This document shows positions 29,381 to 50,516 of a DNA stretch of 51,002 bases, one piece after another; within the stretch, counting starts at the first letter, position 1; each line of letters starts with the position of its first letter. The stretch comes from an uncultured Opitutia bacterium. Lineage in GTDB: Bacteria; Verrucomicrobiota; Verrucomicrobiia; Opitutales; Opitutaceae. The position numbers and the translations under genes are program-made. Below the pieces are notes generated by a model. The model did not search any database. It was not told the DNA's origin and saw nothing but the letters and a program-made list of their open reading frames with translations. The stretch is taken from NCBI GenBank assembly GCA_903825285.1, contig CAIJZY010000049.1:1-51002 (forward strand), written 5' to 3'.

Positions 29381-30544
29381 TCAGGAAATTTTTAACAGGA
29401 CCAGTCGGTGGCTCTGGACAAAGGCCAGCATCCGGGAGAGTCCATCGGTCACCCACGCGAGCACGAGGCAGGTGGTGGCGCAGATGATCACGATGAGCTC
29501 GGGCATCTCCCGGCACGAAGCCAACGCCTCGGCATAGCGCCACGCGCCGAAATAAAGCACCAGGATATGCCAAAGGTAGATTTCCAGCGTGTAACGGCCG
29601 AGGTAGCTGAGCACCGTGGCGCGCGGTGACCAACCCAGGGTGACCCCGGCGGACAAGCCGACGACGATGCTCAGGTCGTAGATCATCATCTCTGGGCGGA
29701 CGTACGCGAAATCCAGCCGGTTGAATTCGAAATGGGCTCCCATGGCCGCTCGGTCCATGAGGTGCACCCCGTTCCACGCCATGGCTCCTGCCGCCGCCAG
29801 CAGGGCGATGCCGCACGCGGCTTTCACCGTGCGGGCCGAAATCAGACTGGTCAGGCTGCGGAAGTGGAGCCCGGTGAAGAAATAGAATACCCAGAAGAGA
29901 ACATTGGGCCGGCCCCAGCTGTAATAATCCAAGGCGCCTCGATTGCACAGCACACCGATCGTGAGGTGCACAGCCAGCAGCAGCCCGGTTAGGCCGAGGG
30001 CGACATGTTCGACCCTGAGGATGGGGATAAGCCGATTGAGCCAGTGAGGCAGCGCCTTCAGGGCCGGTTGTAGGATATAAAGCTGCAGAATGAGCGGGAT
30101 GAAGTAGAGGGTGGGCTCGATGCCGTAGAGGCACAGGCGCTGCAGCAGCCAGGCGTAGCGGGACCGATAATCCGGCAAGCCCAACCACTCGGCGTGGTGA
30201 TTCAGCAGGAAAAAAGCGGCAAAACTCGCGATGAGGTAGGGGAATGCGATCCGCCAGAACCGCCCGCGGTAGTAATCGGCCAGCGACACCTGGGACCGTG
30301 AGGAGCCTGCCAGCAATCCGGAGAGGAAGACAAACATCGGCACGGCAAAGCTGAACACTTGGTTCAGGGCGAGGCCCAGATGAAAGGACGAACTCCACGC
30401 AAAGCCATCGGTGGTCACGAAGCTGCCGGCGAAATGGACGCAGACCACCCCGAAGATGCTCCAGCCGCGGAGCGTATCAATGTACGCATTGCGGACCGCA
30501 CCGGTCGATCCGCGCCCGTCCTGTGATGGCTGCACGGCGCTCAT
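29381..30544 (-). CDS. Acyltransferase-3 family membrane O-acyltransferase
   Basis: A 387-residue polytopic protein with the family's N-terminal pattern AYIDTLRGWSIFGVVCVHFAG (Arg and His about ten residues apart) and about ten helices. GRYTLEIYLWHILVLYFG near the C-terminus is also typical. OafA/NodX-type proteins add acetyl or other acyl groups to surface glycans. Its ATG overlaps the stop of the 950-residue membrane protein gene (ATGA). With the MBOAT unit at 16219-18740 the locus thus has two independent acylation systems. Confidence 0.92.
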   Translation of the reverse strand: MSAVQPSQDGRGSTGAVRNAYIDTLRGWSIFGVVCVHFAGSFVTTDGFAWSSSFHLGLALNQVFSFAVPMFVFLSGLLAGSSRSQVSLADYYRGRFWRIAFPYLIASFAAFFLLNHHAEWLGLPDYRSRYAWLLQRLCLYGIEPTLYFIPLILQLYILQPALKALPHWLNRLIPILRVEHVALGLTGLLLAVHLTIGVLCNRGALDYYSWGRPNVLFWVFYFFTGLHFRSLTSLISARTVKAACGIALLAAAGAMAWNGVHLMDRAAMGAHFEFNRLDFAYVRPEMMIYDLSIVVGLSAGVTLGWSPRATVLSYLGRYTLEIYLWHILVLYFGAWRYAEALASCREMPELIVIICATTCLVLAWVTDGLSRMLAFVQSHRLVLLKIS

Positions 30545-33393
30545 GGGTTTCTGATGCCTTCCACCCGCAGGCTCCGGAACACGTAATAGTAGGGCGCAGA
30601 GTCGGGCAGGGTATCGAGGCGGCGCCTAATATTCAGCGTGCGGGTCTCGTGCCGCCCAAACATTTCCCAGTGATCCTTGGCCCCTTTCTCCAGCGGGGTT
30701 TTTTCGGCGACGAGCGAAGCCTTCACGTCTGGATAGCGCTCGAGGTAGTCCAGCCAGTCTGGCTCAGATCCGACGATCACATTCCTGAATTCCAGGATAT
30801 TTTTCCCCGGCTGGGGCGTGAGGGTGATGTTTTCGTTGAGCCAGGAAGTGCGTCCCTCGAGATGATAGTTCTTTATGACTTGGCCGTTCAGCACCAAGTC
30901 CACCGAGGCACTGTCCCTCACGTGCAGTCTGAGGCCAAAGGTGAGTTGCAGTCGTCCGACATGGCTATTGGCCGGTATTTCCAGCCGGACCACGGGGGCT
31001 TTGGCCCACCGAATCACCGGCAGGTCCCATTGCGGGTAGGGTCCCTCGGCGGCGGCAAGACCCGTAGTGACAATCTGGGTCTTGGGTTCTCCCGGGACCA
31101 AGTTCTCCGCGAAGACCGACACGGGATCCTGCGGGGCCGGTTCCTCGGGAGGGAGATCCCGGAAAAGATAAGGAATATCGATGGCCCCAACCTCCTTCCC
31201 GCTAGACTGGTCTTGGGCCCTGACCGTGAATCTCTGAAAGGGACGGATCACCGACGCCTTGGCTTCACCCGTGGAGCTGAAGGTGGCCAGTGTTTCGGAG
31301 GTGTTGTCGGTGTAATCCACGCCCACCCGCAAGCGGACTTGGTCCGGCACGTTGAGCCCTGCGACCTTGATGCGGAGGTCCTTGTAGCGGTTGGGATCGC
31401 GTGGCCCGTAGTAAAGGCTGACGAGGACATGCCGATCCGCCTCATTGGACATGACCTGATCCGGGTGTGGCACGAGCCCGTAGTAGTCCAGCGCGGGCTG
31501 ACCGACGCCGATGGTGCCGAGGAATTCAACCCCGGCCGTCCGTTTGGTGGGGATGGCAACTGTGGTAAATGACGAGAGCTGTTCGATGTTGCTGTAGGCG
31601 ACCTTCCGGGGGAAGGCCCATTCAGAGAATACATTGTACGCGGAGGCATCCACCTTGGCGAAGGCGGTGAATCGTTGATTCCGTCCTAGGGTCATAAGGA
31701 GGAAAATGCGCTCGTTGCCGTCAGTGGAGTCTATGTTGATGCGGGGTTGACCGCTCAGACGCTGCACCATGGTTGGAGGCAAGGAGGGAAGGGCCTGCGG
31801 CGGAGGCTGTCCGGCCCAGAGTGGCGCATAGGGACGGCTCGTGTTTTGGAACAGGTAGACGCCGGCCATCCAGAGGGCGCTGAGGACCAAGGCGGAGAGC
31901 ACATAGCGTGTGCCACGCCTAAACGGGGCGCTGGCCCAACCCGCTTCCACCACCGGTGCGAGGCAAGGGCTCATCACGAGAATCGCAGGCACAAAGTATC
32001 GCTGATTGTAGAGCGACCACTTGTTCAGGAAGAAATAGGTCACGAACCAGCCAAGGCCCAGGGCGGCCAGCCATAGCAGGGGCGCCGAGGTTTTACGTGG
32101 GCGAGCGAGGCAGAAGACCGCGCTCAGCAGGATGCAAGGCCCGGCAAATCCGTACCATACATGGTCCTCGTTCAGGTCGGGAGGAAAGAGGTAGAGCGGG
32201 GAGAAGGCATAGGCCGGGTTCCAATGGGGAAAGAAGGTCTGCTGGCCCCACGCGTTCAGCTGACCAGTGAACGTCATGTCAAAAGTGAATCGATGCAAAG
32301 GCTCGATGAACAACTGCAGCAGGTACGCTTCGGAGGTCTGGGCGACGCACCCCAGGGAGAATGGTCGGTTCAGCGTGAAGTCGTAGGTCTTGTTAAGCCA
32401 CTCACCTTTCTCGACAAAGTTGATGATCGCAAAAGGCGCGCAAAATGCGCCCGCGATCAGAGCCGGAATCAGCCAAGCGCGCGCGCCGGCGAAAAACTCC
32501 GCGAGTAGCCCTTTCCTCCAATGCTGATATGCCAGCAATGCTAGGATCAACCCGCCAACCGGGCCGAAGAACACGATGGTCAACTTGGCGCCGGCGGTCA
32601 ACCCGGCGGCCAGTCCGGCCAGCAACGCGTCGCGTGCCTGGCGCGACGCACGCCAGCGCAGCGCAAACACCAAGGCGCACAGAAGCCCCGCCCCGGTGGG
32701 CAGGTCATTCGTGGTGGCCGTAGCCTGCGCGAGCACCTGCGTGGAGGTGAGCGCCAGCCAGCAGGCGATCAGCGAGGCCGACGCGGCACATCCGGCCAGA
32801 CGGCAAAGGCGATAGACGGCCAGGCCGGCGGTCAGCCAGGCAGTGAGGTTGATGAAATTGAGGCACTGCAACGGCGGGCTGTAGATCTCACAATAGAGCT
32901 GGAGCAGGTTGAAATTGAACGGAAAGTAGATCTGCCGGGGATTGCCCGTGTCAAAGTGCCCCAGCGTGTTCTGCCCGAGATAAAACATCCCCCGCGGCAG
33001 GTGGTACGTAAGGGAGTCGTAATTGTTGGGGACGTACGTGCTGCCGATTCGCAGGCTCGCGTAGGTGATGGGAAGCAGGGTCAGGAAAAATAACGCGAGC
33101 ATCCAAGGCAGTGGCGCGGCGTCGGCCGTAGGGTCTGTACGGGCCTCGGTCTCTGGTTGTACGACTCGCAGCAGCAGCCATGTGGCGAGGGCAAGGATCA
33201 GTGATGTCCGGAAGAACCAGGCGTTTTCGCCGAGACGGTGCAGGCTCGCCAGCAACAGGCTGGTGACCACGACATTGGCCCAGCCCAGCAGCAGGGTGGC
33301 CAGAATCCGGTCCATCGTGGAACGGACCAGTCGGTGTGTCGCGCCCAAGGACGCCCCGAGGAGGATGACCGTGTGTGCGAGGAAGAGAGCCAT
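30541..33393 (-). CDS. Large polytopic membrane glycosyltransferase with periplasmic C-terminal half
   Basis: A 950-residue protein. Residues 1-560 carry about twelve hydrophobic helices with an acidic first loop (VPNNYDSLTYHLPRGMFY) like that of ArnT/PMT-type enzymes. The remaining 390 residues are soluble and probably periplasmic, with a beta-rich segment (HVGRLQLTFGLRLHVRDSAS). Near the end, DYLERYPDVKA...HWEMFGRHETR is the short repeat also present in the two double-GT proteins. It starts 1 base after the GT4-methyltransferase gene and overlaps the acyltransferase gene. A truncated relative is the pseudogene at 26569-27592. Function as a lipid-donor sugar transferase is inferred from layout. 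Confidence 0.82.
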   Translation of the reverse strand: MALFLAHTVILLGASLGATHRLVRSTMDRILATLLLGWANVVVTSLLLASLHRLGENAWFFRTSLILALATWLLLRVVQPETEARTDPTADAAPLPWMLALFFLTLLPITYASLRIGSTYVPNNYDSLTYHLPRGMFYLGQNTLGHFDTGNPRQIYFPFNFNLLQLYCEIYSPPLQCLNFINLTAWLTAGLAVYRLCRLAGCAASASLIACWLALTSTQVLAQATATTNDLPTGAGLLCALVFALRWRASRQARDALLAGLAAGLTAGAKLTIVFFGPVGGLILALLAYQHWRKGLLAEFFAGARAWLIPALIAGAFCAPFAIINFVEKGEWLNKTYDFTLNRPFSLGCVAQTSEAYLLQLFIEPLHRFTFDMTFTGQLNAWGQQTFFPHWNPAYAFSPLYLFPPDLNEDHVWYGFAGPCILLSAVFCLARPRKTSAPLLWLAALGLGWFVTYFFLNKWSLYNQRYFVPAILVMSPCLAPVVEAGWASAPFRRGTRYVLSALVLSALWMAGVYLFQNTSRPYAPLWAGQPPPQALPSLPPTMVQRLSGQPRINIDSTDGNERIFLLMTLGRNQRFTAFAKVDASAYNVFSEWAFPRKVAYSNIEQLSSFTTVAIPTKRTAGVEFLGTIGVGQPALDYYGLVPHPDQVMSNEADRHVLVSLYYGPRDPNRYKDLRIKVAGLNVPDQVRLRVGVDYTDNTSETLATFSSTGEAKASVIRPFQRFTVRAQDQSSGKEVGAIDIPYLFRDLPPEEPAPQDPVSVFAENLVPGEPKTQIVTTGLAAAEGPYPQWDLPVIRWAKAPVVRLEIPANSHVGRLQLTFGLRLHVRDSASVDLVLNGQVIKNYHLEGRTSWLNENITLTPQPGKNILEFRNVIVGSEPDWLDYLERYPDVKASLVAEKTPLEKGAKDHWEMFGRHETRTLNIRRRLDTLPDSAPYYYVFRSLRVEGIRNP

Positions 33394-33394
33394 G

Positions 33395-35314
33395 CTAAAG
33401 AGTGACGTAGAGAGCGCAGCAGCCGGCGCAACCCATGAACCGGCCGTGCCCGGCCTTTTCCCAGTCCTGGGCCGCCCGCTTCACCCCGATGCTATCCGTG
33501 TCATTGTCGTGATTCAGGAAGTCATGGACCAGGATCGGCGTGCCCGGCTTTAGATAGGAGCTGAGGGTCTTTAGGTCGGCGGCGACGCCATCGAACGTGT
33601 GATCGCCGTCCAGAAATACCATGGTGGGCGTGATCGACCAGCGTTTCACGAACGCCTGCAGGTTTCCGTGGAAGAGATGGCAGTAATGCCCCAGCATTTC
33701 CCCGGCGAGGATTTGGCGAGTGCGCGTGATGGCGTCGTCGACAATATCAATGCCATAAAACTTCGGCGCCTGCGTGCGCGCCGGGTTGGCCAGCGCCCCC
33801 CGTAACTCGACGGTGGCGGACCGACCGCCGAAAGTGCCGATCTCCAGAATCACATCACCGGCATGGTACGCCATCTCGTAGAGTTTAAAGGAATCCCCCG
33901 GGGTTTGCCAACCGGGCAAGGCAGCGGTCGTCTCGAATATCTTCGCATGTTCCTCGTTGATGAACGGGCCTTCTGCTGGCCAGGAGGGGCGGTGGGTGGT
34001 GGTGGAGGGAATGTCTATTCTCTCATCCAAAGCATAGGCGAGGGCGGGGGGATTGAATCCCGTGCCGGCCTGGCGTTGACCGTTGAAGAATACATGCCAC
34101 CGGTGCTCATGGGCCCAATTGGAGAACCGGGCGACCGCATATTGCCTGGCCCATGGGCCGGCCACCGCGAAGAAGCGAGGGTCGGACAACGCCGCCCGGA
34201 TGGCCGCGATGGCTTCCGCTGCGTCGCCGTTGCGGACGAGCTTCCCGGTGATCTCGTTGCGAACAATCTCCTCCACGCCTCCGGCCTGGAAGGCGATGAC
34301 GGCGACGCCGCAGAGTTGCGCCTCCATGATGGTCTGGCCGAACGCCTCTTCCGTGGCGGTGCCAAGGAAGAGGTCGGCGGCTTGGTAGATCAACGCGAGT
34401 TTGTCGGCGGCAAGGTGGTACCCCATGCCGATCATGCCGGGTATCTCCTGCGCATTGTGGCCGAAGGCGGCGAAGGTTACCTCATCCCTGAGGGCCGCGA
34501 CGATGTCGCGGAGGTGCTGCCCGCCTTTGCGGTTTTCACGGAAATTCACCGCCGCGCAGAGCACAATCGGTTTGCCCTCCGGCAAACCGAGCAGCTTGCG
34601 AGCCGCGTGTTTGTCTCCAGGTTTAAAGATAAACTCATCGGCCCCCAGATGAATTGTCTCCACCGCGCGGCTGGCCGGCAACGCGGTCTTGAACATCTGC
34701 TTGCTCCAGTCGCTGTTGGCGACGATTTCGATGCCGTCAGGTCCGCCAAAGATCTCGCGGCGAATCTGCCAAGCCCCGGCGATCAGCGAGGGATCGAGGG
34801 CAGGATACTCCGTGGCAGTGGGACAAGTCTCGTTGCAGCCGGTCAAGTACAGCTGGCAGTTGCCGGGATACGCGCAGCGCCCCGTGAAGAGATAAGCATC
34901 ATGGAGGAATGCGATGACCCGGCAGCCGATGTCGCGCAGTGCGGTCAGGAGCCGGAAGGGCCAGCGCGCCGCATGAAGGTTGCCCACGATGACGACGGTG
35001 GGGTCGAATCGGGCCACTTCCATGAGGATGCCGGCGATGACGGCGTCGTCGGACAGCGATTTGCCTCCCTCGAGATGATTGACCTCACGGACGCCAAGCC
35101 ACAGGTCGGGTTCGATCCGGCGTGTGGCAACATGTCCCAGTTCGATGCCGCCGGGCGACCAGGCCAGCACGCCGGTCTCGATGCCCAGGGCGATCATGCC
35201 TTCGACCTGTCTAGCCTGCGCCACACCTGCCCCATACTGAAAGCTGACATCGTTGAGAAAGAGCACGCGACGGGGCAGGTCGGCGGTGAGTAGCCTGGAG
35301 TTCAACGGTTTCAT
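33395..35314 (-). CDS. GT4 glycosyltransferase-methyltransferase fusion
   Basis: A 639-residue two-domain protein with an ATG start (35314-35312). The N-terminal part (about 15-425) is a GT-B fold: RRVLFLNDVSFQYGAGVAQA, later EEAFGQTIMEAQLCGVAVIAF with the Glu-x7-Glu block of retaining GT4 enzymes. The C-terminal part (about 465-639) is a class I methyltransferase of the Methyltransf_24 type: VILEIGTFGGRSATVEL, FLDGDHTFDGVAADL and TPILVHDFLNHDND. The two jobs, adding a sugar and methylating it, could act on the same residue. It lies 10 bases after the methyltransferase gene at 35325 and 1 base before the membrane protein gene, so this is one tight operon. Confidence 0.9.
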   Translation of the reverse strand: MKPLNSRLLTADLPRRVLFLNDVSFQYGAGVAQARQVEGMIALGIETGVLAWSPGGIELGHVATRRIEPDLWLGVREVNHLEGGKSLSDDAVIAGILMEVARFDPTVVIVGNLHAARWPFRLLTALRDIGCRVIAFLHDAYLFTGRCAYPGNCQLYLTGCNETCPTATEYPALDPSLIAGAWQIRREIFGGPDGIEIVANSDWSKQMFKTALPASRAVETIHLGADEFIFKPGDKHAARKLLGLPEGKPIVLCAAVNFRENRKGGQHLRDIVAALRDEVTFAAFGHNAQEIPGMIGMGYHLAADKLALIYQAADLFLGTATEEAFGQTIMEAQLCGVAVIAFQAGGVEEIVRNEITGKLVRNGDAAEAIAAIRAALSDPRFFAVAGPWARQYAVARFSNWAHEHRWHVFFNGQRQAGTGFNPPALAYALDERIDIPSTTTHRPSWPAEGPFINEEHAKIFETTAALPGWQTPGDSFKLYEMAYHAGDVILEIGTFGGRSATVELRGALANPARTQAPKFYGIDIVDDAITRTRQILAGEMLGHYCHLFHGNLQAFVKRWSITPTMVFLDGDHTFDGVAADLKTLSSYLKPGTPILVHDFLNHDNDTDSIGVKRAAQDWEKAGHGRFMGCAGCCALYVTL

Positions 35315-35324
35315 CAGTCAGTGC

Positions 35325-36314
35325 TCAGGCGGTCTTCTTGAAGAGGAAAACTCCGGTGATCGTGGGCCCGACATGGGAGCGATAGCAGTCGTCGAGGAAC
35401 TTCATCTGCGACTTCATGTGCCGGCGGATCAACTTCAGCAGCGGCGCATCGAACAGCATGCAGTACTGCAGGTAATTCAGGAAAAAGACACTGAATGTCT
35501 CGAACTCGGGCAGGAGGGGCGGCGCGTAGTCGCTGAATGTGGCATTGGGCAGGAACTTCAAGCGCAGGCCATACTGGGCGCCTAGATCTCCCAGTTCGGT
35601 CGGACTGAAGAGGTGCTTGTCCTCGGCGGTCGCTTTGTCGATGTCGCGACGGCAATAAAATTTCACGGTGTCCGCGAAATCTTTCAGTTGTTTCTTCCAC
35701 TCTGGACGGAGGTCAACTCCGGCGGCCTGCAGCGTGGGGGCGATGCTCTGAGCGACCGCCGCCATCAGGATGTAGCCGCTTTCCACCGGCTCCGCTCCCA
35801 TCGCGAGCGAACCGCCGGGGCGCAGCGTGCGGGCGCAGGCGGCGATGAACTCCTCCACTTTCAGGATGTGGTGAAGGGTGGAGCGCATAGCGATCAGCGA
35901 GAACATGTCCGGGGGCAGTTGGCTAAGGTCGTCTGCATTCAGCACGGCGTAATGCAGGCGGGTCGAGGGATCGCCGCCGCCCTCGAACAGTCGTTGCGTC
36001 AGGCGCAGGAAGGTTCCGGAGGGATCAGTGATGAGAAAATCCGGCCCTGGATAATTTTGTGCCAGTCCGTAAGTGAGGCGGCCAGTGCCGCAGCCGATTT
36101 CCAGGGCCGGACCCTGAGTGTCAACGCCATGGATTTGAAGCAGCGAGCAAAGACCCTGCCCTTCCTCGGGTTCGGCCGCATTGACCCCGTACTGGGCATC
36201 GTAGCCGTCCTCCGCGTGGGCGTATGGGCGCTCGGGCGAAAGCTGCAGCCAGCCCTTCGACTTCGGGAGGGATGCAACCCAAGACTCAAAATTTTCTGGC
36301 ACGGATGACTTCAT
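35325..36314 (-). CDS. SAM-dependent methyltransferase, copy A of a paralogous pair
   Basis: A 329-residue protein with an ATG start (36314-36312), 2 bases after the double-GT gene. SAM motif ALEIGCGTGRLTYGL, then FLITDPSGTFLRLTQ, NADDLSQLPPDMFSLIAMRSTLHHIL and LRPGGSLAMGAEPVESGYILM. The gene at 39288-40289 encodes a colinear paralogue with the same order of motifs (for example GCGTGYLTYGV and GAEPCESGYLLM). Each follows a double-GT gene, so the GT and methyltransferase form a two-gene module. Target unknown. Confidence 0.88.
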   Translation of the reverse strand: MKSSVPENFESWVASLPKSKGWLQLSPERPYAHAEDGYDAQYGVNAAEPEEGQGLCSLLQIHGVDTQGPALEIGCGTGRLTYGLAQNYPGPDFLITDPSGTFLRLTQRLFEGGGDPSTRLHYAVLNADDLSQLPPDMFSLIAMRSTLHHILKVEEFIAACARTLRPGGSLAMGAEPVESGYILMAAVAQSIAPTLQAAGVDLRPEWKKQLKDFADTVKFYCRRDIDKATAEDKHLFSPTELGDLGAQYGLRLKFLPNATFSDYAPPLLPEFETFSVFFLNYLQYCMLFDAPLLKLIRRHMKSQMKFLDDCYRSHVGPTITGVFLFKKTA

Positions 36315-36316
36315 GG

Positions 36317-39151
36317 TCAGGAGGCTGGAGTATACGGTCGCCCGGTCCGGTATGCCTCGTTAACCGCCTGCAGTTCGGGGAGGTAAGGCGGATTTTCCCC
36401 GGCGGTTTTCTGGTTCTGGTGCTGGCGGAAGATCGTGGTGATCTCCGGAATGGCGAAACCCTGTGCCCCGGCCTGTGCCATGCGCACCCAAAGATCGTAG
36501 TCCATGCTATAGTAGAGGTCCTCGCGGACCATCCCGCCGGCGCGGTCGAAGATGTCACGGGTGAAGAAGACCTCGGGTTGGTGAAAAAACATCCCCTTCA
36601 GCCAGGCCCCGTCGAGATCGAGCAGTTGATCCAGCCTGAGTGCCGCGATGCGGCCCAAGGGCAGGCTGGAGCGGTGGACATGGCTGGGCAGGGCTTCCCG
36701 GTCAACCACCCGAGCGCATCGGCCGACGATCAGGTCGGTTTTGTGCAGCAGGAAATTCTGCGCCACGGTGTAGAGGCTGCCCGGGGCCAGGCGGTCATCG
36801 CTGTTCAGCCAAGTTAGGATGCCGCCGGTTGCGCGTTGAAAGCCTTTGTTCAGGGCGTGGGACTGCCCATGGTCTTTTTCGCTGACCCACCAGGCCAGAC
36901 GATCGGCGTATTTCTTGATAATCTCCACGGACCCGTCCGTGGAGTCACCATCAATGACAATATACTCCAGGTTGGGGTAATGCTGGTCCAGCACTGAGCG
37001 AAGGGTCTCCTCCAGATATGCGCCTTGGTTGTAGCTGACGGTGACTACGGAAATTTTGGGCCAAGGCGCATCCTGCGCGGGTCGATCGGGATAGAGATCC
37101 TGCGGGCGGAGATTGGGCCAGTGGATGGAGAGAGCGTTGCTCGGCATGCGTGGCCCGATCCATGAATCGGGTGGCCTAAGGCACAGCAGCACGTGGTTTG
37201 GCAGCGTGATGCGCGCGCGATCCTCCGGGAGCCACTCGGCCGAAGTGTCAAACCCACTAATGAGGAGCTTGTGATGGGGCTGCAGCCGGCCCATGAGGTG
37301 CGGACGTGCGCTGTCGGCGTCGATGCAGTCAAAGGCCACGCAATCGAACTCCGCCAAGCCCGAGCAATAGCCCGGCGTGCCTGCGCTCCTGCGCTCGCGC
37401 AGTCCGAAGAGCTGGTAATGCTCCCAGCCACTGCGGATCTCGCCCTTGGCAATGGCGCTGGCCACGTCGGGATTCGCCAGCGCATACGCCTGCTCGTTGA
37501 AGAGATTGTCCGTCAGGCTGAGCCATTCCCAGAGCGACTCGGTCCAGAAATGGATGAAACTCGGCCGGAGCTCCGCCAGTTCCGCCGGGCTGGAGAAGAC
37601 CTCCACCTGGATGCCCATGGCCCCGAACCAGAGCAGCAACGGGAGCAACCGGGGATGATACTTGACCACTGCGACCTTGCGCAGGTGCTGCGCATAAGGG
37701 GCCAGGGCCTCCCAGATTTTCTCCTGGTCCGCCGGCTGGTTCGTCAGGTGCCTCGCATGGGCCTCGGCCAGGGTCGCCTGCAGCTGGCCGTTCAGGCTGG
37801 CAATGACCGCATCCCTTTCCGCGCCGGCCTTGGCGTGCGCCTGGATCTCCGACTCCAGTGACTTCATGTACGCCAGATTCCGCTCATGGTCCGAATACGC
37901 CGTCTTCAGCTTGTCCTGGTAGAAGGAAATGGACTTGAGCCGTTCTGCGCTGTCGGACTCCACTTCCTGCAGATAGCTGACGACCTTCTTCAAGTCGGCC
38001 TTGAGCTGGTCAATCTGCGTCTGCCGGTCCTTTTCGACCTCGCGCAGATAATCGACGGTGCGTTTCGTGGCCACTCGGGCCTCCTTCGCCGCCACCCGAT
38101 ACTGCTCGATCGAGCGAAGCGCGCCGGCGCGGTTCAGCTCTATCGCCTGGAGGGCGGCTAGACGGTTGGTTTCAATGGCCTGCAGGCGTGCGGCGCGATC
38201 CAGCTCGGACGCTCGCAGGGTGTCGAGAAGGTCGGCCAAGGCGAGGCCGCTGCGCGAATCATCTGCCCGGGCCGGTGGAACCACCTCCGCCGCTTCCGCG
38301 GCGGCCGGATCGCCGGAATGCAGTTGCCGCAGGTAGGGCAGGTACACATGCCGGCGCAGGCCGGGGGTGAGGGTGGCGTCGTATTTGAAGAGCCCCGGGT
38401 TGTAGAGCCCGCGCCCGAGGTGGGTCAGCGCATGGAAGTGATAAAAGATCAGCGGTCGACGATTGATCAGCACGCCCTCGGCGCCGGCCGTGACCTTGCA
38501 GTGCTTGATGTTCCAGGGCGCGGCATTGATCCCGGGATGGGAGAGGCTGACTACGCCGGGAAATTGCGCGGCCCAGGCGTCGAGGTACTTCTGGTCCGCG
38601 TAGCGGCTCTCCTCCAGGCGATTGAAGCACCATTCGGCGCACTTCTCGGCCCAATCGGCCACGCAGGCCTCCCCCGCGGCGTCGCGGCGCATTGAAACCC
38701 AGCCGACGTTGTACTTTCCATAGCGCTCCAGGTGGGCGAGTGAGGAGGGGAAGCGGTGCGGCGTGATGGCGATCGAGCCGGTCCCGATCTCGTCATACAC
38801 GGGTTGCGGAGAGCTGAAGAAATACAGGTCGGCGTCCAGGTACGTCAGGAGTTCACTCTCTGGCAGCCGCGGCAGCAGGTGCCGCATCAGCCACGCGGTG
38901 CAGGTGAAATAGAACTCCAGTTTCGACCGGTCACCGCGCGCGGTGACGAGGGCGGGGAAATACCGGATCAGCTCCGCCACGGGCAGCAGCCGAATGCGGG
39001 GCAGCGCACTTTTCCGCAGCGCCATTTCGACCTCCTCGTCCATGCAGAGCACCGTGAGCTCGAAATCACCCGCATGGGTGCACAGCGATTGGTAGAGCGC
39101 GAGACCGCGAGTCAGGTAATTTTCGTCAAAATAGGTGCAGAAATAGCGCAT
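36317..39151 (-). CDS. Double glycosyltransferase with central coiled coil, copy A (motifs intact)
   Basis: A 944-residue protein; the ATG at 39151 matches the paralogue's start (MRYFCTYF), so I reject a GTG three codons earlier. Residues 1-290 are a GT-A domain with [13 protein letters not shown] (DAD at 106-108) and [10 protein letters not shown]. About 310-470 is a long coiled coil with repeats such as LQAIETNR and LQAIELNR. A middle region holds [20 protein letters not shown]. The C-terminal GT2 domain (about 700-944) has [31 protein letters not shown] and WLNSDD at 783-786. All catalytic motifs are present, so both domains should be active. The downstream methyltransferase starts 2 bases away. 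Confidence 0.9.
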
Positions 39152-39199
39152 GAAGGGCACGGAGGCGCAGTCAGGAGGTTAATCGTGACGGTGATGTTG

Positions 39200-39260: not shown

Positions 39261-39300
39261 AAAAACGCCCTTGTCGCGAGACCGCTGCTACACGGGCGTT
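39261..39300 (-). terminator. Intrinsic terminator-like hairpin after copy-B methyltransferase
   Basis: On the minus strand AACGCCC and GGGCGTT form a 7-base stem around a 23-base loop (which can itself pair GTC with GAC), followed directly by further T residues to make TTTTT. It overlaps the last codons of the gene ending at 39288. It would end the transcript that comes from the exporter-sulfotransferase side. Confidence 0.5.
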
Positions 39301-40289
39301 CCAGGCGCCGTTTTCTTCAGGATGAAAACCCCGGTGATTTCCGGCCCGGGGTGGCTGCGGTGGCATTCGTCAATGAACCGGAGCTGGTCCTTCAGGTGCG
39401 TGCGGATCTGCTCCATGAACTCCGCGTCGAAGTTCATGCAGACCTGCAGGTAGATCAGGAAGAAATTGCTGAAGCTGTGGAAGCTCTGGACGTACGGCGG
39501 CGCGAAGTCGCGGAACGACGAGGTGGGATAGAACTTCAGCTGCAGGCCATTCGCCCCGCCGAGCTCGGCCAGCTGGTGCGGACTGAAGAAATGCTTGTCC
39601 TCGGCGTACGTCTTCTTGAGGTCGCGCAGGCAGCAGAACTTCACCGTGTTCGTGAAGTCCTCGAGGCGCTCGGTCCAGTGCGGGCGCATCTCGATCCCGG
39701 CCGCCTTGAGCGTCGCTGGGATGGACTGCGCCACGGCCGCCATCAGCAGGTAACCGCTCTCGCAGGGCTCCGCGCCCATCATCAGCGCCCCGCCCGGGCG
39801 GAGGATGCGGCCGCAGGCGGCGATGAAGCCCGGGACGTCGAGAATGTGGTGCAGCGTGGACCGCAGGGAGATGACCGAGAACATGCCCTCCGGCAGGTCC
39901 CCAATGTCATCCGCGTTCAACACCGCGTAATGGCGCCGGGTGGTGGTCGCACCCTGGGCCTCAAGCTGGTTCTGCGTCAGGCGCAGGAAGGCGGGCGAGG
40001 GGTCCGTGACCAGGAAATCCGGGCCCGGATAATGCAGCGACACGCCGTAGGTGAGGTAGCCCGTGCCGCAGCCGATCTCCAGCGCGGGTCCCGCGGTGTC
40101 AATCTGGTGGGTCTTGAGCAGTGCGCACAGACCCTCGCCCTCGCGCGGGTCGGGGGCCGACAGGCGGTACTGGGTGTTGTAGTCCTCCTCCGTGTGCATG
40201 TACGGGCGGGCGGGCGACAGCTGCAGCCATCCGCGCCACTTCGGGAGGCGGTAAATCCAGGCGGTGAAGGACTCGGTGGCGGCGCTCAT
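39288..40289 (-). CDS. SAM-dependent methyltransferase, copy B of a paralogous pair
   Basis: A 333-residue protein, ATG 40289-40287. SAM motif ALEIGCGTGYLTYGV, FLVTDPSPAFLRLTQ, NADDIGDLPEGMFSVISLRSTLHHIL and GAEPCESGYLLM. It is colinear with copy A at 35325-36314 (roughly 329 against 333 residues), with high G+C codons like the outer parts of the locus. The SAM motif is intact, unlike the GT motifs of its partner gene at 40311-42953. It starts 21 bases after that gene and ends at a terminator-like hairpin. Confidence 0.88.
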   Translation of the reverse strand: MSAATESFTAWIYRLPKWRGWLQLSPARPYMHTEEDYNTQYRLSAPDPREGEGLCALLKTHQIDTAGPALEIGCGTGYLTYGVSLHYPGPDFLVTDPSPAFLRLTQNQLEAQGATTTRRHYAVLNADDIGDLPEGMFSVISLRSTLHHILDVPGFIAACGRILRPGGALMMGAEPCESGYLLMAAVAQSIPATLKAAGIEMRPHWTERLEDFTNTVKFCCLRDLKKTYAEDKHFFSPHQLAELGGANGLQLKFYPTSSFRDFAPPYVQSFHSFSNFFLIYLQVCMNFDAEFMEQIRTHLKDQLRFIDECHRSHPGPEITGVFILKKTAPGTPV

Positions 40290-40310: not shown

Positions 40311-42953
40311 TCAGGGCTTGGGCTGGTGGGACGCGCTCACCGCGCGGAGTTCGGCGACACGCTCGGCGTCGGCTGGGTCGCCGGGGATCTCGCGCGAGAG
40401 CGCCAGGATCTCAGGCAGCGCAAAGTGGCGCGCGCCGGCCTTCGCCATGCGTACCCACAGGTCGTAGTCGGTGCTGAAGCGGAGGTCCTCGCGCAGATGT
40501 CCGCCGGCGCGCTCGAAGATGTCGCGGGTGAAGAAAACCTCGGGCTGCCGGAAGAACGGCCGCTGCAGCCAGCCCCGGTCGAGGTCGAGTAGCTCGCCGA
40601 GCCAGAGCGGCTGGATCCGGTCCAGCGGCAGGTGGTTGCGGTGCAACTGGTGCGGACGCGGCTCACCGTCCCGATCGCGGGCGCACCGGCCGGACATCAG
40701 GTCGGCGGTGTGCAGCAGGAAGTTCTGTCCCACGGTGAACAGGCTGCCCGGAGCCAGGCGGTCGCCGCAGTCCAGCCAGGTCAGGATGCGGCCGCTGGCC
40801 AGGGCCAGGCCCTCGTTGAGCGCGCGGGCGTGGTGGTCCGCCTGCGTCCCGACCCGCCACACGAGGCGGTCGGCGTAGCGCTTGATGATGTCCGCCGAGC
40901 CGTCGGTCGAGCCACCGTCGATCACGATGTACTCGAGGTTGGGATAGCACTGGTCCAGCACGGAGCGGAGGGTTTCCTCGAGGTGCGCCGCCTGGTTGTG
41001 GCTGGCCGTCACCACCGTGATCCGCGGCCAGTCCGCGCGCTGCGCCGGCTTTTCCGGGAAGAGTTCCTCCGTGGTCACCGGCGGCAGCGCGGACGCCAGG
41101 GTGCCGGCCGGCTGGCGGGGTCCGATCCAGAAGGCCGGCGGATGTTCGCAGTGCAGGGTATGGCCCAGGAGATAGCTGCGGCCCTCGCCCGCCGGGAACC
41201 AGTCGGTCGGCGGGGTGAAGCCGCTGATGAACAGCTGCTGGTATGGCTGCATGCGCCCGGCGAGGAAGGGTGCGATCAGGCCGGCGTCCGAGCCGTCGAA
41301 GGCCACGGCGTCGAACTCCGCCAAACCCGAGCAGTAAGCCGGCGATCCCAAGCTGCGGCCCTCGCGCTGGCCGAACCGCAGGAAATGGTCCCAGCCGCTC
41401 GTGAGCGCGCCCTGCGCGATCGCTGCCTGGACGTCGGGATGCTCCGCCCGGTAGGCCCGCTCGCTGAACAGGCTGTCGAGCTGGCCCAGCCATTCCAGCA
41501 TGGGTTCCGCATGGAACCGCACGGCTCCGTGGCTCAGCAGCAGCAGGTCGGGCGGGCACCCGAACACGTCCACCGTGGCCCCGAAGAAAGGAAACCAGAG
41601 GATCTCGGAGAGCAGGCGCGGATGAAACTTGGCGACGAGCAGCCGGCGAACCCGGCGGCCGTAGGGCTCCAGCACCGTCCGCACCTCCTCCTGCTCGGCT
41701 TGCGCGGCGGTGATCGCCCGCCGCTCGAGTTCGCCCGAGAGGCTCGCGATCTGCGCGTCCTTGCCGGCGCGCTCGGCCGCCGTCTCCGCTAGGAGCTTCT
41801 TGATGTACTCCACATTTCCCTCGAGGTCGAAGTAGGCCTGCTTGAGGTCCTGCTCCACCTTGAGCAGCCGGAGCCGCTGGGTGAAGCGGTCGTCCTCGAC
41901 CTCCTTCAGGCGCAGGAGCGTGAGCGCCAGCGTGTCGCGGCTCTCCGCGAGCGACTGCCGGGCGGCGACCTCGGTCTTCGCGCGGGCGAGTTGGTGGTCT
42001 GCGGATTCGCGCCGCGCCGCGCGCAGCTGCTCGACGAGGAAGGGGAGTGCGACCCCGGCACGGGGATCATCGGCAAGGGCCGGCGGCACGATGTCGGGGA
42101 CGCCATCGGGTGAGGGACCCGCGAGCACCCGCAGGTAGGGCCGGTAGAGGTGTTCCCGCAGCGCCTCCGACGGCGCGACGTCGTATTGATGCAGGCCGGG
42201 ATCGTACAGCTGCCCGACGAGGTGGTGCAGGCCGTGAAAGTGGAAGCAGACCAGCGGCTGCCCGCCGATGAGCGGGCCTCCCGGCGAAGCGGTGACGGCG
42301 GCGCCCGCGAGACTCCACGGGGCGGCGTTCACCCCGGGATGGCTCAGCACGACCGTGCCGGGGAACTGCGCGGGCCAGGCATCGAGGTACTTCTGCTCGG
42401 CGTGGCGGCGCGGCTCCACGAGGGTGAAGCACCAGGCGGCGCACTGGTCGGCCCAGTCGGCGGCGCAGGCCAGGCCCGTGGCGTCGTGGCGCAGGGTGAC
42501 CCAGCCGGCGTTGAATTTTCCCCGGCGCTCCAGGTTGGCGAGCGCGGCGGGTAGGCGCTGCGGCGTGATGGCCACCGAGGCGGTCCCGATCGCGTCGAAG
42601 GCCGGCTGCGGCGAGCGGAAGAAAAACTGCTCGGCGGCGAGGTAGGTGAGCAGCACACCGGCCGGGACCTGCGGCAGCTGGTCGCGCAGCAGCCAGGCGG
42701 TGCAGGTGAGGAAGAATTCTGCAGCGGTCCGGTCGGACTGCGCCGCCGCCAGCGGCGGATGCCGCCGGGTCAGTTCGCCGGCCGACAGCAAACGCACGCA
42801 TGGGAGGGCCCGGCTCCGCAGCGCGGATTCCGCCGCTGGGTCCGCGCACAGGATGACAAGCTCGAAGTCGCCGGCCTGGGCGCGCAGCGACTCATACAGC
42901 GCCAGCCCGCGGGTCAGGTTATCGGTGCCAAGTGAGGTGCAGAAATATCTCAA
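40311..42953 (-). CDS. Double glycosyltransferase paralogue, copy B (metal motifs lost)
   Basis: An 880-residue paralogue of the protein at 36317-39151, probably using a TTG start (42953-42951) that gives MRYFCTSLGT. The domain order is the same: GT-A domain, coiled coil (about 305-420), a short repeat (EHPDVQAAIAQGALTSGWDHF) and a C-terminal GT2 domain (about 645-880). The catalytic signatures differ. DADLYFF becomes AAEQFFF (106-108), the GT2 SEKDHGQ loop becomes GTQADHH, and the LNSDD metal site becomes LDCGD (about 728-731). The fold appears kept, since [11 protein letters not shown] and [11 protein letters not shown] are conserved, so it looks like a non-catalytic or altered paralogue rather than a broken gene. 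Confidence 0.88.
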   Translation of the reverse strand: MRYFCTSLGTDNLTRGLALYESLRAQAGDFELVILCADPAAESALRSRALPCVRLLSAGELTRRHPPLAAAQSDRTAAEFFLTCTAWLLRDQLPQVPAGVLLTYLAAEQFFFRSPQPAFDAIGTASVAITPQRLPAALANLERRGKFNAGWVTLRHDATGLACAADWADQCAAWCFTLVEPRRHAEQKYLDAWPAQFPGTVVLSHPGVNAAPWSLAGAAVTASPGGPLIGGQPLVCFHFHGLHHLVGQLYDPGLHQYDVAPSEALREHLYRPYLRVLAGPSPDGVPDIVPPALADDPRAGVALPFLVEQLRAARRESADHQLARAKTEVAARQSLAESRDTLALTLLRLKEVEDDRFTQRLRLLKVEQDLKQAYFDLEGNVEYIKKLLAETAAERAGKDAQIASLSGELERRAITAAQAEQEEVRTVLEPYGRRVRRLLVAKFHPRLLSEILWFPFFGATVDVFGCPPDLLLLSHGAVRFHAEPMLEWLGQLDSLFSERAYRAEHPDVQAAIAQGALTSGWDHFLRFGQREGRSLGSPAYCSGLAEFDAVAFDGSDAGLIAPFLAGRMQPYQQLFISGFTPPTDWFPAGEGRSYLLGHTLHCEHPPAFWIGPRQPAGTLASALPPVTTEELFPEKPAQRADWPRITVVTASHNQAAHLEETLRSVLDQCYPNLEYIVIDGGSTDGSADIIKRYADRLVWRVGTQADHHARALNEGLALASGRILTWLDCGDRLAPGSLFTVGQNFLLHTADLMSGRCARDRDGEPRPHQLHRNHLPLDRIQPLWLGELLDLDRGWLQRPFFRQPEVFFTRDIFERAGGHLREDLRFSTDYDLWVRMAKAGARHFALPEILALSREIPGDPADAERVAELRAVSASHQPKP

Positions 42954-43083: not shown

Positions 43084-43905
43084 CTAGGTGGCGGCCGGCG
43101 GCGCCTGGTGGTGGTCGGCCCATTTGGAATCGGTCTCGAAGCCGAGTTCCTGGAGCTCCCGGCCAATCAGCTGGTCCAGCAGCCGCACATGGTCCGGCTG
43201 GTACCAGTTTTTCCAGTCACCCACCTGGCCGCGCCGGAAGAAGTCGCGCGTGTTTCCGGAAAAGACCTTGGAGAAGCCCGAGCAGTAGACTTTCTCCACC
43301 TCGGCGCAGCTCTTGGCCACCGGCAACCCCAGGTAGGCGATGATGCGGTTGAGGGTGCCGATGTAGTCCGCCTTCAGCGCCTCGTAGGTCACGAAGCTGA
43401 TCCCCGGGTCCTGCCGGGCCTGCCGCACATGGGACGCCCAGATGGGCGCCTCCCGGCGGAGGAAATCCGCGAACTCGTCGGCGCGGAACACCGGGTCGCA
43501 GCCGCCGCGGGACAACTGCACCTCTGTGCCGTGGATGCTCGTCACGGAGACCTGCTCGGCGTGGAGGGTCGGGTAGGCCTGACAGAAAAAATAGTAGCTG
43601 AGCAGGGCGTCGCGGCCGTCGCGGCACACGTAGACCACGGGCCCCGGGGGAAACACCTGCCGGTAGGCCGCCATGTCGGCGTGTGACTTAATGCAGATGG
43701 GCTGATCCGGAGACCGGCGGGGCGCGCAGCGGAAATTGAAGGGCTCGCCGAGTTCCCCGTGGTGCTCCGTGTACAGCTTGTCCTGCGTGTACGCCTCGCC
43801 GCCGACGCAGTCGAACAGCAGGGTCAGAGAATTGAGCAGCCAGGTGTTGCCCGAGCGGGGGTAGGACAGCAGGTAAAAGGCGTTGGGTGGCAGCGGCGGG
43901 GGCAT
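43084..43905 (-). CDS. PAPS-dependent sulfotransferase
   Basis: A 273-residue sulfotransferase (Sulfotransfer_1 type). The 5'-phosphosulfate loop is SYPRSGNTWLL (residues 14-24), the 3'-phosphate site is CRDGRDALLS (94-103), and the C-terminal FFRRGQVGDWKNW binds PAPS. It transfers sulfate from PAPS to a hydroxyl, most likely on the glycan or its lipid precursor. The stop of the gene is followed by a 130-base gap. Upstream it starts 3 bases after the Wzt-type ATPase gene. The cysN and cysD genes nearby can supply the first step of sulfate activation. Confidence 0.92.
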   Translation of the reverse strand: MPPPLPPNAFYLLSYPRSGNTWLLNSLTLLFDCVGGEAYTQDKLYTEHHGELGEPFNFRCAPRRSPDQPICIKSHADMAAYRQVFPPGPVVYVCRDGRDALLSYYFFCQAYPTLHAEQVSVTSIHGTEVQLSRGGCDPVFRADEFADFLRREAPIWASHVRQARQDPGISFVTYEALKADYIGTLNRIIAYLGLPVAKSCAEVEKVYCSGFSKVFSGNTRDFFRRGQVGDWKNWYQPDHVRLLDQLIGRELQELGFETDSKWADHHQAPPAAT

Positions 43906-43908
43906 GGA

Positions 43909-45351
43909 TCAGGCGGGAGGGATCACTTCGAGGGCCGATTGGCTCGGCAGGCCCGTCATGCCGAAATGGAGCAGCTGGAACGGAAGGGTCTCCTCGCGCA
44001 GGCGCACGCTCACCGCCACAGCGGCGTGTAGCTCGCAGATCCGTAGCTGCGTGCGCATGAAGTCGTCGTAGGTGATGCCGGGCTGGTCGAGCAGGTCCGA
44101 GGCCACCATCTCAAGGGCTACATCCAGCGTGTATTCGGCGCAGTGGACGTTTAACACGGTGTCCTGCCGGTAGCGCAGCCGGCTGCCTGCGGCCACCCGG
44201 GCTGGGGAGCGGAGGCCGTCCTGCAGCGTGATTTTGGAGTGGACCGGCTGCGCGGTCTTGTCGCGCACGGTGAGGCAGCCCACGCAGAACTCCATGTCGC
44301 GAAGAATCTCGAACTCGTAGAACACGCTCATGGTCTGGCCCTGGCGGAAATGCCGGCAGGTCTCGCCGGCGGCGTTGGTCACGGCGAGATACGTGCAGCG
44401 GGCCCAGTCATTCGTGATGATCCTGCAGCCCGTCGTGTCCACCGCGGACTCAGGCCCGGGCCACTGGGGGATGGCCGGGCGGCGCGGCGCGGCATTCGAG
44501 GTGTCCGGCGACGGAGCCGCGGGCGCCGAGCCGGCCCCGCTGGCAAAGGCTGCGGCCCGCTCCTGCTGCTCCAGCTGGAAGTAGACCTTGGTCGCCTCTG
44601 CGGAGGGGCCGTGGAAGGCCACCTCGCCGTGCCGGAAGACGAGCGTGCGGGAGCAGAACTGCTGCACTGAGCCGAGGTCGTGCGACGCCAGCACCACGCA
44701 CACGCCCGTGTCGAGCAGCTGCCGCATGCGCTCGTAGCAGCGCTGCTGGAAGAACACATCGCCCACGGACAGCGCCTCGTCCACAATGAGGATCTTCGGC
44801 TCGACCGCGGTCTGCACCGCGAACGCCAGCCGCACGAACATGCCGCTCGAGTAGGTCTTCACCGGCTGCTCGATGAAGTCGCCGATGTCGGCGAACGCCG
44901 CGATCTGGTCAAAGCGGTTGTCGATCTCCTGCCGCGTCAGGCCCAGCACCGCGCCGTTGAGGTAGACGTTCTCGCGCCCGGTGAAGTCCTGGTTGAACCC
45001 GCTGCCGAGCTCGAGCAGCGCCGCCACGCGGCCGTTCACCTGCACGCGCCCCTCGGTCGGCTGCAGCGTGCCGGCGATGATCTGGAGGAGGGTGGATTTG
45101 CCCGAGCCGTTGCGGCCGATGATGCCCACGCTCTCGCCCTGGCGGACCGCGAAGGAGATGTTGCGCAGCGCCCAGAAGTCCCGGTAGCGCGCCTGGGCCT
45201 GCGCCGCCAGCCGCTGGCCGGCCGCGGAGTTTTTCGGCAGCAGCCGGCTGGCGGAGGCGAGCAGCGGGGAGGCGAGCCGCGCGGACGGGGAGTCCCACAT
45301 GCGGTAGGCCTTGCTGACGCCCTCGACGGAAATGACGGTGTCGCCGCTCAT
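43909..45351 (-). CDS. wzt: Polysaccharide ABC exporter ATPase with C-terminal carbohydrate-binding domain (Wzt-type)
   Basis: A 480-residue ATPase. Walker A is GIIGRNGSGKST (residues 77-87), the signature is YSSGMFVRLAFA, Walker B is ILIVDEALSVGD, and the switch His lies in LASHDLGS. Residues 305-480 form the Wzt C-terminal domain that recognises the finished glycan (start near SAVDTTGCRII, later QTMSVFYEFEIL). Wzt works with the permease Wzm, but none lies in this window. A 24-codon remnant sits directly upstream where Wzm would be expected. The sulfotransferase gene begins 3 bases after it, so export and sulfation genes are coupled. Confidence 0.93.
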   Translation of the reverse strand: MSGDTVISVEGVSKAYRMWDSPSARLASPLLASASRLLPKNSAAGQRLAAQAQARYRDFWALRNISFAVRQGESVGIIGRNGSGKSTLLQIIAGTLQPTEGRVQVNGRVAALLELGSGFNQDFTGRENVYLNGAVLGLTRQEIDNRFDQIAAFADIGDFIEQPVKTYSSGMFVRLAFAVQTAVEPKILIVDEALSVGDVFFQQRCYERMRQLLDTGVCVVLASHDLGSVQQFCSRTLVFRHGEVAFHGPSAEATKVYFQLEQQERAAAFASGAGSAPAAPSPDTSNAAPRRPAIPQWPGPESAVDTTGCRIITNDWARCTYLAVTNAAGETCRHFRQGQTMSVFYEFEILRDMEFCVGCLTVRDKTAQPVHSKITLQDGLRSPARVAAGSRLRYRQDTVLNVHCAEYTLDVALEMVASDLLDQPGITYDDFMRTQLRICELHAAVAVSVRLREETLPFQLLHFGMTGLPSQSALEVIPPA

Positions 45352-49454: not shown

Positions 49455-49610
49455 TGCGGAAGCCGAACTGCAGCCGGACGCCAGCTTGGCGCGATGAACC
49501 GGGCTAGAGCAGTGGACAACTGCAGCGCAGCCGGCGGGTGACGCGGTGGCGAAGCGGCTTGCCGCATCCACACCCGCACGCCAATGAATTCGAGTGGCAC
49601 TGCCACTCCG

Positions 49611-50516
49611 ATGTCCCACCTCCTTCTCAGCCACCTCGATGCCCTGGAGCATGAGGCAATCCACATCCTCCGCGAGACGGCGGCGCAGTGCCCGCGGGCG
49701 GCGATCCTATTCTCGGGGGGCAAGGACTCGCTCGTGCTCGCGGCCGTGGCGCGCAAGGCCTTTGACCCCGCGCCCTGTCCCTTTCCCCTGCTGCACATCG
49801 ACACGGGCCATAATTTTTCCGAGACGCTCGCGTTCCGCGACCGGTTCGCGCGCGACTTTGGGTTCCAGCTCGTCATCCGGCTCGTGCAGGACTCGATTGA
49901 CCGCGGCCGCGCCAGGGAGGAGACCGGGCCCAACGCCAGCCGCAACCTCCTGCAGACCGTCACGCTCCTCGACACGTTGGCGGAGCTGAAGCTCGACGCC
50001 GCGCTCGGCGGCGCGCGCCGCGACGAGGAGAAGGCGAGGGCGAAGGAGCGCATCTTCTCCCACCGCGACACCTTCGGCCAATGGGATCCGCGCCACCAGC
50101 GTCCCGAGCTCTGGAACCTCTACAACGGCCGCAAGAACCCCGGGGAGCATTTTCGCGTGTTCCCGCTCAGCAACTGGACCGAACTCGACATCTGGGCCTA
50201 CATCGAGCGCGAGCAGCTTCCGCTGCCCTCGCTGTATTTCGCGCACGAGCGCGAGGTGTTCCTCCGCAACGGCACGCTCCTGGCAGTGTCGCCGCATATG
50301 CGGTTGCAGCCCAGCGAGACGGCGCACCGCGAGCTTGTGCGCTTCCGGACCGTGGGCGACATGACCTGCACCGGCGCGGTGCGCTCCAGCGCCTCCACGC
50401 TCGCCGAGATCATCGCCGAGGTGGCCGCCGCCCGCCAGACCGAGCGCGGCACCCGCTACGACGACCGCCGGTCGGAATCGGCGATGGAGGACCGGAAGCG
50501 GACGGGATATTTTTGA
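49611..50516 (+). CDS. cysD: Sulfate adenylyltransferase subunit 2, CysD
   Basis: A 301-residue PP-loop ATP pyrophosphatase. I start at the ATG 49611 (MSHLLLSHLDALEHEAIHIL), the usual CysD N-terminus; an ATG nine codons earlier adds unrelated residues. PP-loop SGGKDSLVL at residues 35-43, LHIDTGHNFSET, WTELDIWAYIEREQLPLP, and the C-terminal MEDRKRTGYF match the family throughout. CysD forms ATP sulfurylase with CysN and makes APS. It is on the plus strand, head-to-head with a cysN remnant, and convergent with the last, partial gene. Confidence 0.96.
   Translation: MSHLLLSHLDALEHEAIHILRETAAQCPRAAILFSGGKDSLVLAAVARKAFDPAPCPFPLLHIDTGHNFSETLAFRDRFARDFGFQLVIRLVQDSIDRGRAREETGPNASRNLLQTVTLLDTLAELKLDAALGGARRDEEKARAKERIFSHRDTFGQWDPRHQRPELWNLYNGRKNPGEHFRVFPLSNWTELDIWAYIEREQLPLPSLYFAHEREVFLRNGTLLAVSPHMRLQPSETAHRELVRFRTVGDMTCTGAVRSSASTLAEIIAEVAAARQTERGTRYDDRRSESAMEDRKRTGYF

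Follow-up and report, generated by a model that had tools for sequence, protein, structure and literature searches.

The closest described parallel to the locus reported here is the assembly of O-antigens that are exported by ATP-binding cassette (ABC) transporters. In the published account, the coiled-coil ruler bears a terminating enzyme at its far end, and the polymerising glycosyltransferase modules lie C-terminal to it or on partner proteins (PMC11231755). The same account describes an assembly complex that is held by protein contacts and whose modules are distributed in many ways, with some coiled-coil terminator orthologues ending after the coiled coil and others continuing into glycosyltransferase modules (PMC11231755). 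For the Klebsiella O7 system it reports that substitution of the three Asp residues of a DXDD motif by Ala abolished activity on the acceptor used, and it indicates that chain length control and the assembly of polymerase, capping and ruler modules are best known from a few enterobacterial systems (PMC11231755). Here we describe a two-domain coiled-coil glycosyltransferase, copy B, and its paralogue, copy A, both encoded on a stretch of 51,002 nucleotides (the window; CAIJZY010000049.1, positions 1 to 51,002), which is one contig of the 3.74 Mb genome of an uncultured Opitutia bacterium (assembly GCA_903825285.1; labelled G000). B is an old, selected and probably non-catalytic paralogue in a modular machine. 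The two copies, and the domains of B, are located as follows.

40311..42953, minus strand: copy B, 880 amino acids from a TTG start, made up of a GT8-like pseudo-N domain, a coiled coil, a middle domain and an eroded GT2 domain
42093..42953, minus strand: pseudo-N domain of B (residues 1-287), modelled with a GT8-like GT-A fold, AAE replacing DAD
41658..42065, minus strand: coiled coil of B, with helices predicted from the model at residues 297-387 and 400-432
40311..41030, minus strand: GT2 domain of B (residues 642-880), matching PF00535, with LDCGD and the loop GTQADHH
36317..39151, minus strand: copy A, an active-type GT8-like head fused to a coiled coil, middle domain and intact GT2 domain

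Copies A and B are 50% identical across 935 columns (BLASTP). The open reading frame of A (36317-39160) encodes 947 amino acids, with the start probably at 39151, giving 944, and it carries LDAD in the N-domain and the SEKDHGQ loop and LNSDD in the GT2 domain. B has LTYLAAEQFFF in the N-domain, and VGTQADHHARALNEG then LTWLDCGDRL in the GT2 domain. An earlier reading made from the sequence alone (the sequence-only reading) had pointed out the changes from DAD to AAE, LNSDD to LDCGD and SEKDHGQ to GTQADHH, and these are confirmed in the translations, both genes lying on the minus strand. The frameshift-free state that it assigned to B also holds, as the frame is without internal stops and spans 899 amino acids. 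The length, on the other hand, was not kept as it had claimed: B is 64-67 amino acids shorter than A (depending on the start of A), and 53 of these fall in the coiled coil (139 versus 192 amino acids). Its view that both metal motifs were lost is correct for the DxD of the N-domain and only in part for the second motif, where N-S-D-D has become D-C-G-D with loss of the third letter (D to G) and retention of the last Asp.

A search of 252 genomes of the family at a threshold of 1e-100 found an A/B-type protein in 20. Relatives were taken from 22 regions fetched from 19 other genomes, in which genes were chosen by a longest-ORF (open reading frame) rule that missed the stand-alone head of G005, added by hand, and some methyltransferases. 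A sequencing error at the altered codons, which the sequence-only reading had named as a possible refutation, is unlikely because orthologues of B in two of these genomes carry similarly changed motifs, namely AAD, GEPADHH and DSGD in G005 (77% identity) and AGD, GENATSL and NPGD in G010 (63% identity).

The N-domain of B could be modelled with a mean predicted local distance difference test score (pLDDT) of 93.7 and a predicted template modelling score (pTM) of 0.92, and the model has the GT-A fold of GT8-like retaining glycosyltransferases of the glycogenin/LgtC kind. Its fold matches include glycogenin and UGGT (Z about 18), LgtC (Z 17.2) and LARGE1, with root mean square deviations of 3.4-4.2, and Foldseek returned E-values down to 2e-8 (XXYLT1) at a template modelling score of about 0.5; the sequence identity to the fold matches is only 6-17%. 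What the domain lacks is the DxD metal motif, with AAE in its place, while DAD is present in copy A, in 5/5 GT8-type stand-alone heads and in 15 of the 16 outgroup rows, the remaining row having DSD. A tree of N-domains rooted with these 16 rows, built with the motif columns dropped and three long rows omitted (G123 A with DPS, G123 B with APT and G006 B with TSA), resolves into an active-type and a pseudo-N set; as the two labels were set after an earlier tree, it is a refinement and no independent test. The active-type set, weakly supported as one clade (68/47), has 10 rows, all with DAD: the A copies of G000, G010, G006, G211 and G274 and the stand-alone heads of G005, G119, G132, G198 and G275. 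The pseudo-N set of 16 rows, including nine of the 11 B copies, forms one clade (97/89), and 14 of its rows have no DAD, the A copies of G119 and G132 retaining it. In the earlier, unrooted tree most branches were weak, the B rows needed four changes, and G274b grouped with the active-type rows; in the outgroup tree it groups with pseudo-N. By an unbiased count the window B keeps 95 of 130 N-domain positions. Judged from these alignments and trees, the loss of DxD in the N-domain of B is clear and old, and the intact N-domain of A, which belongs to the stand-alone-head type, cannot simply be taken as an undamaged sister of the one in B. We judge the head of B to be very probably inactive.

In a tree of the middle and GT2 domains (31 rows), all 19 A-type rows lie on one side of a single branch (100/98) and 12 rows lie opposite, these being the 11 labelled B and G002a, which we assign to B as its sister is the B copy of G006; two of the eroded rows (G123a and G275) are long, and the support for one of the B groups is only 84/79. 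Since A-type and B rows separate at one branch, a single old duplication explains both copies if the root lies there, and on this tree A and B split once, anciently. A recent loss beside an intact sister was rejected, the N-domains of A and B falling in different sets and the split having occurred once. The earlier description of a loss beside an intact paralogue is therefore right in that A is intact, and falls short in that the N-domain of A groups with stand-alone heads and that the B-type GT2 domain is still intact in several genomes (G006, G002, G206, G207 and G209).

The family also has a second, unrelated head type, which we label HIE type after a local motif. It is carried by A in G121, G126, G050, G133, G199, G207 and G209 and forms a protein of its own in G206 and G123; the stand-alone head of G206 gave no Pfam match at E 0.1. 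Among the 20 genomes, nine have an HIE head and ten an active-type GT8 head with zero overlap, such that 19 have one live head type and G002, the A of which is cut by a contig end, shows neither; this count leaves out GT8-like proteins that are more distant (39-42% identity) and encoded at other loci in G000, G005, G010, G126 and G275, a second HIE-type head in G126 and the DAD kept in the pseudo-N of G119 A and G132 A. The second head of G126 (G126:C12:423088-424212) is more distant (55% identity) and is found about 8 kb before the main one. There are 20 A- or B-type proteins that lack a live head; 19 of them, among which we count the G274 copy at a contig end and the three long rows, carry a full pseudo-N, and the exception is the B of G002. 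Because the dead domain is so regularly retained, its conservation points to a structural role.

The GT2 domain of B is readily recognised by PF00535 (74.9 bits against a curated cut-off of 23.3) and lacks the complete catalytic motif set: eight of 15 positions, hand-picked after viewing the alignment and invariant in 19/19 A copies, are changed. Six B copies (G000, G005, G010, G123, G119 and G275) have lost 7-10 of the 15, and the other 25 rows 0-2. The window B keeps 89 of the 118 positions that are invariant in the 19 A copies, with 117 kept in G206 B and 63, the lowest number, in G275 B. The six eroded rows fall in two tree groups that also contain intact B copies, and on a parsimony count the erosion would have occurred at least twice. 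As a separate observation, the GT2 domain is intact in three of four B copies of HIE-head genomes (L153:10461-13112, L154:4674-7328 and L155:10592-13255), and in GT8-head genomes six of the seven B copies with a readable GT2 domain are eroded or have NSGD (the exception being G006), numbers that are too few to test. In the window B, the E-x-D-x-G-Q loop, Asp788, His860, His914 and Lys918 have been lost jointly, and it is on this joint loss in the alignment that the suspect status of the domain rests. We consider it fairly likely that the GT2 domain of B is inactive.

The codon-model ratio of nonsynonymous to synonymous change (omega) in the eroded clade G000/G005/G010 is 0.094 for the whole gene, 0.094 for the N-domain, 0.076 for the coiled coil, 0.094 for the middle domain and 0.080 for the GT2 domain, and twice the log-likelihood difference from omega=1 reaches 877.6 (whole gene) and 228.8 (GT2). 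On addition of G123 the values become 0.099 (whole gene) and 0.065 (GT2). For comparison, the GT2 omega is 0.030 in four A copies and 0.047 in four intact B copies. The pairwise Nei-Gojobori (NG86) ratio of G000 B and G005 B is 0.25 at an unsaturated synonymous divergence (dS) of 0.57; the method disregards codon bias, and for more divergent pairs dS approaches or exceeds 1. Hence the eroded B clade is under purifying selection, with a constraint that is looser than in intact copies and far from neutral, and the selection check proposed in the sequence-only reading comes out in favour of retention. It is accordingly very improbable that B is a relic becoming a pseudogene and kept by chance alone. 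The erosion of both active sites would fit such a relic, as would the fact that no B is seen in the fetched regions of seven of the 20 genomes and that the B copy of G002 (L141:4010-6126) has lost most of its pseudo-N, with a frame change, its coiled coil, middle and GT2 domains being still open. Against it stand the omega of 0.076-0.094 across the domains of the clade with very large likelihood support, the full-length open frames of 11 B copies, the near-constant coiled-coil length and the recurring gene position. The pseudogene was rejected on omega by both the codon model and NG86.

Between its head and its middle and GT2 domains, B has a predicted extended coiled coil, as do WbdD/WbbB-type proteins. 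Its length is 139-143 residues in 11/11 B copies (standard deviation 1.6) and 161-193 in the 12 A copies with GT8-type N-domains (standard deviation 11.2), the middle and GT2 domains of which are constant in length. The coils of A and B have an A-Y-x-D-x3-N box in common. The stand-alone heads of both types end shortly after a coiled coil of the A/B kind. A coiled-coil profile from four GT8-type stand-alone heads was run against 271 predicted proteins of the loci and matched 37, every one a member of this family and copy B among them at 7e-18; one from two HIE-type heads also had 37 matches (copy B at 6e-7). As such coils resemble one another in composition, and similarity to A/B went into part of the family list, these matches are support and no proof. 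The stand-alone head of G198 (L151:8340-10247) has internally repeated coiled-coil units, as if the coil had been lengthened by duplication.

The layout of head, coiled coil, GT2 domain and a Wzt-like ATPase, the C-terminal domain of which scores below the Pfam cut-off in the window, is parallel to that of the O-antigen machines, and we infer capping, measuring and extending roles for the parts. By analogy with WbdD/WbbB-type proteins, the head, distal on the coiled coil, would cap, and so terminate, the chain, the coiled coil would measure it and the GT2 domain would extend it. B would be an ancient paralogue of the two-domain coiled-coil glycosyltransferase that has lost its head activity and, in this lineage, most probably that of its GT2 domain too. 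It may join A, or in relatives the stand-alone heads, via the coiled coil and act as a scaffold, spacer or diluting subunit that sets the stoichiometry and hence the chain length. Overall, we give about an even chance to B being a mostly non-catalytic structural subunit within a terminator/ruler/polymerase complex that is built on coiled coils and makes an ABC-exported polysaccharide. A more specific version, which we put forward tentatively and regard as somewhat unlikely, is that B is a dedicated pseudo-polymerase ruler, doubly inactive and selected, with a fixed coil of about 140 residues. Assembling together with A, or with stand-alone capping heads that are interchangeable, it would determine how long the chain grows through dilution or spacing of the active capping head. 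If so, active and dead modules would have been dealt out such that each locus keeps one live head type. In the open-licence PMC literature we found no report of a doubly inactive ruler subunit in ABC-dependent glycan assembly, nor any paper that deals with the A/B family or with a dead copy at a locus of this kind.

Several observations weigh against B as a non-catalytic subunit of such a complex, among them the absence of B from some regions and the damaged copy of G002 mentioned above. The N-domain of B retains H241 and H243, both His of HFH, and we infer that one of these is a metal ligand. Its GT2 domain keeps Asp737, Asn771, the last Asp of the DxD, both Asp of DYD (DYDLW) and Arg912 (of the C-terminal R-x-H), because of which some activity is possible, and it has lost two (G765 and D788) of eight positions, chosen by us, that are well conserved in a wider GT2 survey. 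E. coli WcaE, a fucosyltransferase by RefSeq annotation, has LNSGD, and GD is seen in three of the 94 relatives with letters at the motif (89 have DD and two DN) among 98 aligned stretches from loci L050-L114 without L066. The near-constant coil length of B derives from 11 related sequences, and the coils of A and B differ by about 20-50 residues, such that a parallel mixed coil would need slack. Finally, the full-length model of B has a pTM of 0.53 with an unsure domain arrangement (residues 378-403 are mostly below a pLDDT of 50).

Given WcaE and the GT2 survey, LDCGD alone was rejected as proof of inactivity. As to the pseudoenzyme proposed in the sequence-only reading, its retention (seen in omega, in the orthologues and in the near-constant coil length) and the loss of the N-domain DxD stand, and the GT2 argument from LDCGD was too strong; the alignment with relatives that it called for is similarly divided, DAD being well kept in A, the GT8-type heads and the outgroup, and the GD form being found in relatives. 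An alternative is that only the head of B is dead and that the GT2 domain still works as an enzyme, altered in its donor, its acceptor or the way it handles metal, in which the remaining Asp residues would bind the metal otherwise and the rebuilt loop would recognise another sugar. The kept Asp residues (Asp737, the last of DxD and those of DYD) and Arg912, the LNSGD of WcaE, the B of G132, which has NSGD and in which the remaining 14 positions are intact except for K918E, and the strong constraint on the GT2 domain (omega 0.080) are all in keeping with such an enzyme. We nevertheless find it unlikely: WcaE retains SExDxG and HQ, whereas B has lost both the loop and the His; the new loop varies among B copies (GTQADHH, GEPADHH and GENATSL), G010 having lost Asp737 and Arg912 as well; and the constraint is about 2.7x looser than that of A (0.080 versus 0.030). 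It has also to be considered that B could be a lectin-like subunit, an allosteric or processivity factor whose dead sites bind the growing chain or a nucleotide sugar and hold the acceptor for A. Both folds are retained in the models of B, the DGGSTDG motif is kept, and the middle and GT2 domains are constrained, all of which is in its favour; on the other side, no conserved new binding signature is evident, the clade of the window B being represented by just three to four eroded sequences, and we judge it improbable.

Returning to the non-catalytic subunit, which we prefer, its genomic setting is a run of genes on the same strand that comprises, from upstream to downstream, the Wzt-like ATPase, a sulfotransferase, B, MT-B, A, MT-A, a GT4-methyltransferase and a PMT_2-like protein. 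The members other than A and B are the following.

43909..45351, minus strand: Wzt-like ABC ATPase, its Wzt C-terminal domain matching weakly (27.2 bits against a cut-off of 30.4)
43084..43905, minus strand: sulfotransferase (PF00685, 75.3 bits)
39288..40289, minus strand: MT-B, methyltransferase encoded immediately downstream of B (PF08242, 58.8 bits)
35325..36314, minus strand: MT-A, second methyltransferase, after A (PF08242, 60 bits)
33395..35314, minus strand: GT4 and methyltransferase protein, a member of the recurring locus
30541..33393, minus strand: PMT_2-like protein, a member of the recurring locus (weak, 23.3 bits, below the cut-off of 26.1)

Where the regions permit, the order Wzt, optional sulfotransferase, optional stand-alone head, B, MT-B, A, MT-A, GT4-MT and PMT-like recurs, many genomes being without some of the pieces. 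Fourteen named loci (L037-L049 and L066) match most of B or its coiled-coil, middle and GT2 part, and these are titled Verrucomicrobia(ota) or Opitutae/Opitutaceae, including genera such as Lacunisphaera; 64 of the 78 loci match only the GT2 part and belong to many phyla. The Wzt_C domain, below the Pfam cut-off in the window, is above it in G119 (33.5) and G010 (37.0), the sole other genomes scanned. An ABC2_membrane protein is encoded nearby in G119 and G274, and none was found among the 34 open reading frames of the window scanned with Pfam.

Two further groups of genes are present in the window. The segment 27696-33393 has an AglJ-like GT2 protein (28311-29249; 217 bits, below the NCBIfam cut-off of 325), the PMT_2-like protein and an acyltransferase (29381-30544), possibly a set that modifies the polymer outside the cytoplasm. 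The segment 43084-50516 has, besides the sulfotransferase, a GTP_EFTU protein (45558-46799), CysN-like, and a PAPS_reduct protein (49584-50516, plus strand), CysD-like, both names being our reading of the Pfam domains, and these three form a possible sulfate-activation and sulfation set. Judging from MT-A, MT-B, the sulfotransferase and the nearby CysN-like and CysD-like genes, the polymer may be both methylated and sulfated.

The A/B family of the Opitutaceae provides a natural series of what seems to be one machine, with fused, stand-alone, exchanged and dead heads and with eroded GT2 domains, and this series allows one to ask what a coiled-coil glycosyltransferase subunit does once its chemistry is gone. 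With B it also supplies what is probably a bacterial pseudo-glycosyltransferase that strong selection maintains. An inactive glycosyltransferase that is kept as the partner of an active one is known in GtfB of the GtfA-GtfB pair, which has a GT-B fold, functions in protein O-glycosylation and belongs to a family unrelated to B. LARGE1, one of the fold matches of the N-domain of B, likewise joins a GT8-like domain to a second glycosyltransferase, and its stem is presumably a coiled coil; it is eukaryotic, both of its domains are active and it is not known to have a dead partner copy. The GT2 domain of B is comparable to E. coli WcaE and to WrtF, which is its best fold match and on which no paper as an enzyme was found in the open-licence PMC literature; the two are GT2 fucosyltransferases by annotation or entry title and have the SExDxG loop of copy A, with HQ in WcaE. 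Unlike B, they are short proteins with a single glycosyltransferase domain, and the LNSGD of WcaE is accompanied by the intact loop and His that B has lost. The word 'inactive' is absent from the main text of the account of the O-antigen systems (PMC11231755). In that account, WbdD, WbbB (Klebsiella O12) and ORF6 (Klebsiella O7) carry their enzyme domain distally on a long coiled coil, with glycosyltransferase modules placed C-terminal or on another protein and a Wzm/Wzt exporter (PMC11231755). The window locus is similar to them in the order of its modules, and with its Wzt-like ATPase it may be so in its exporter. It differs from them in that the head of this family is GT8-like, or of the unrelated second type, and in that a complete paralogue with an eroded head and an eroded GT2 domain has been kept.

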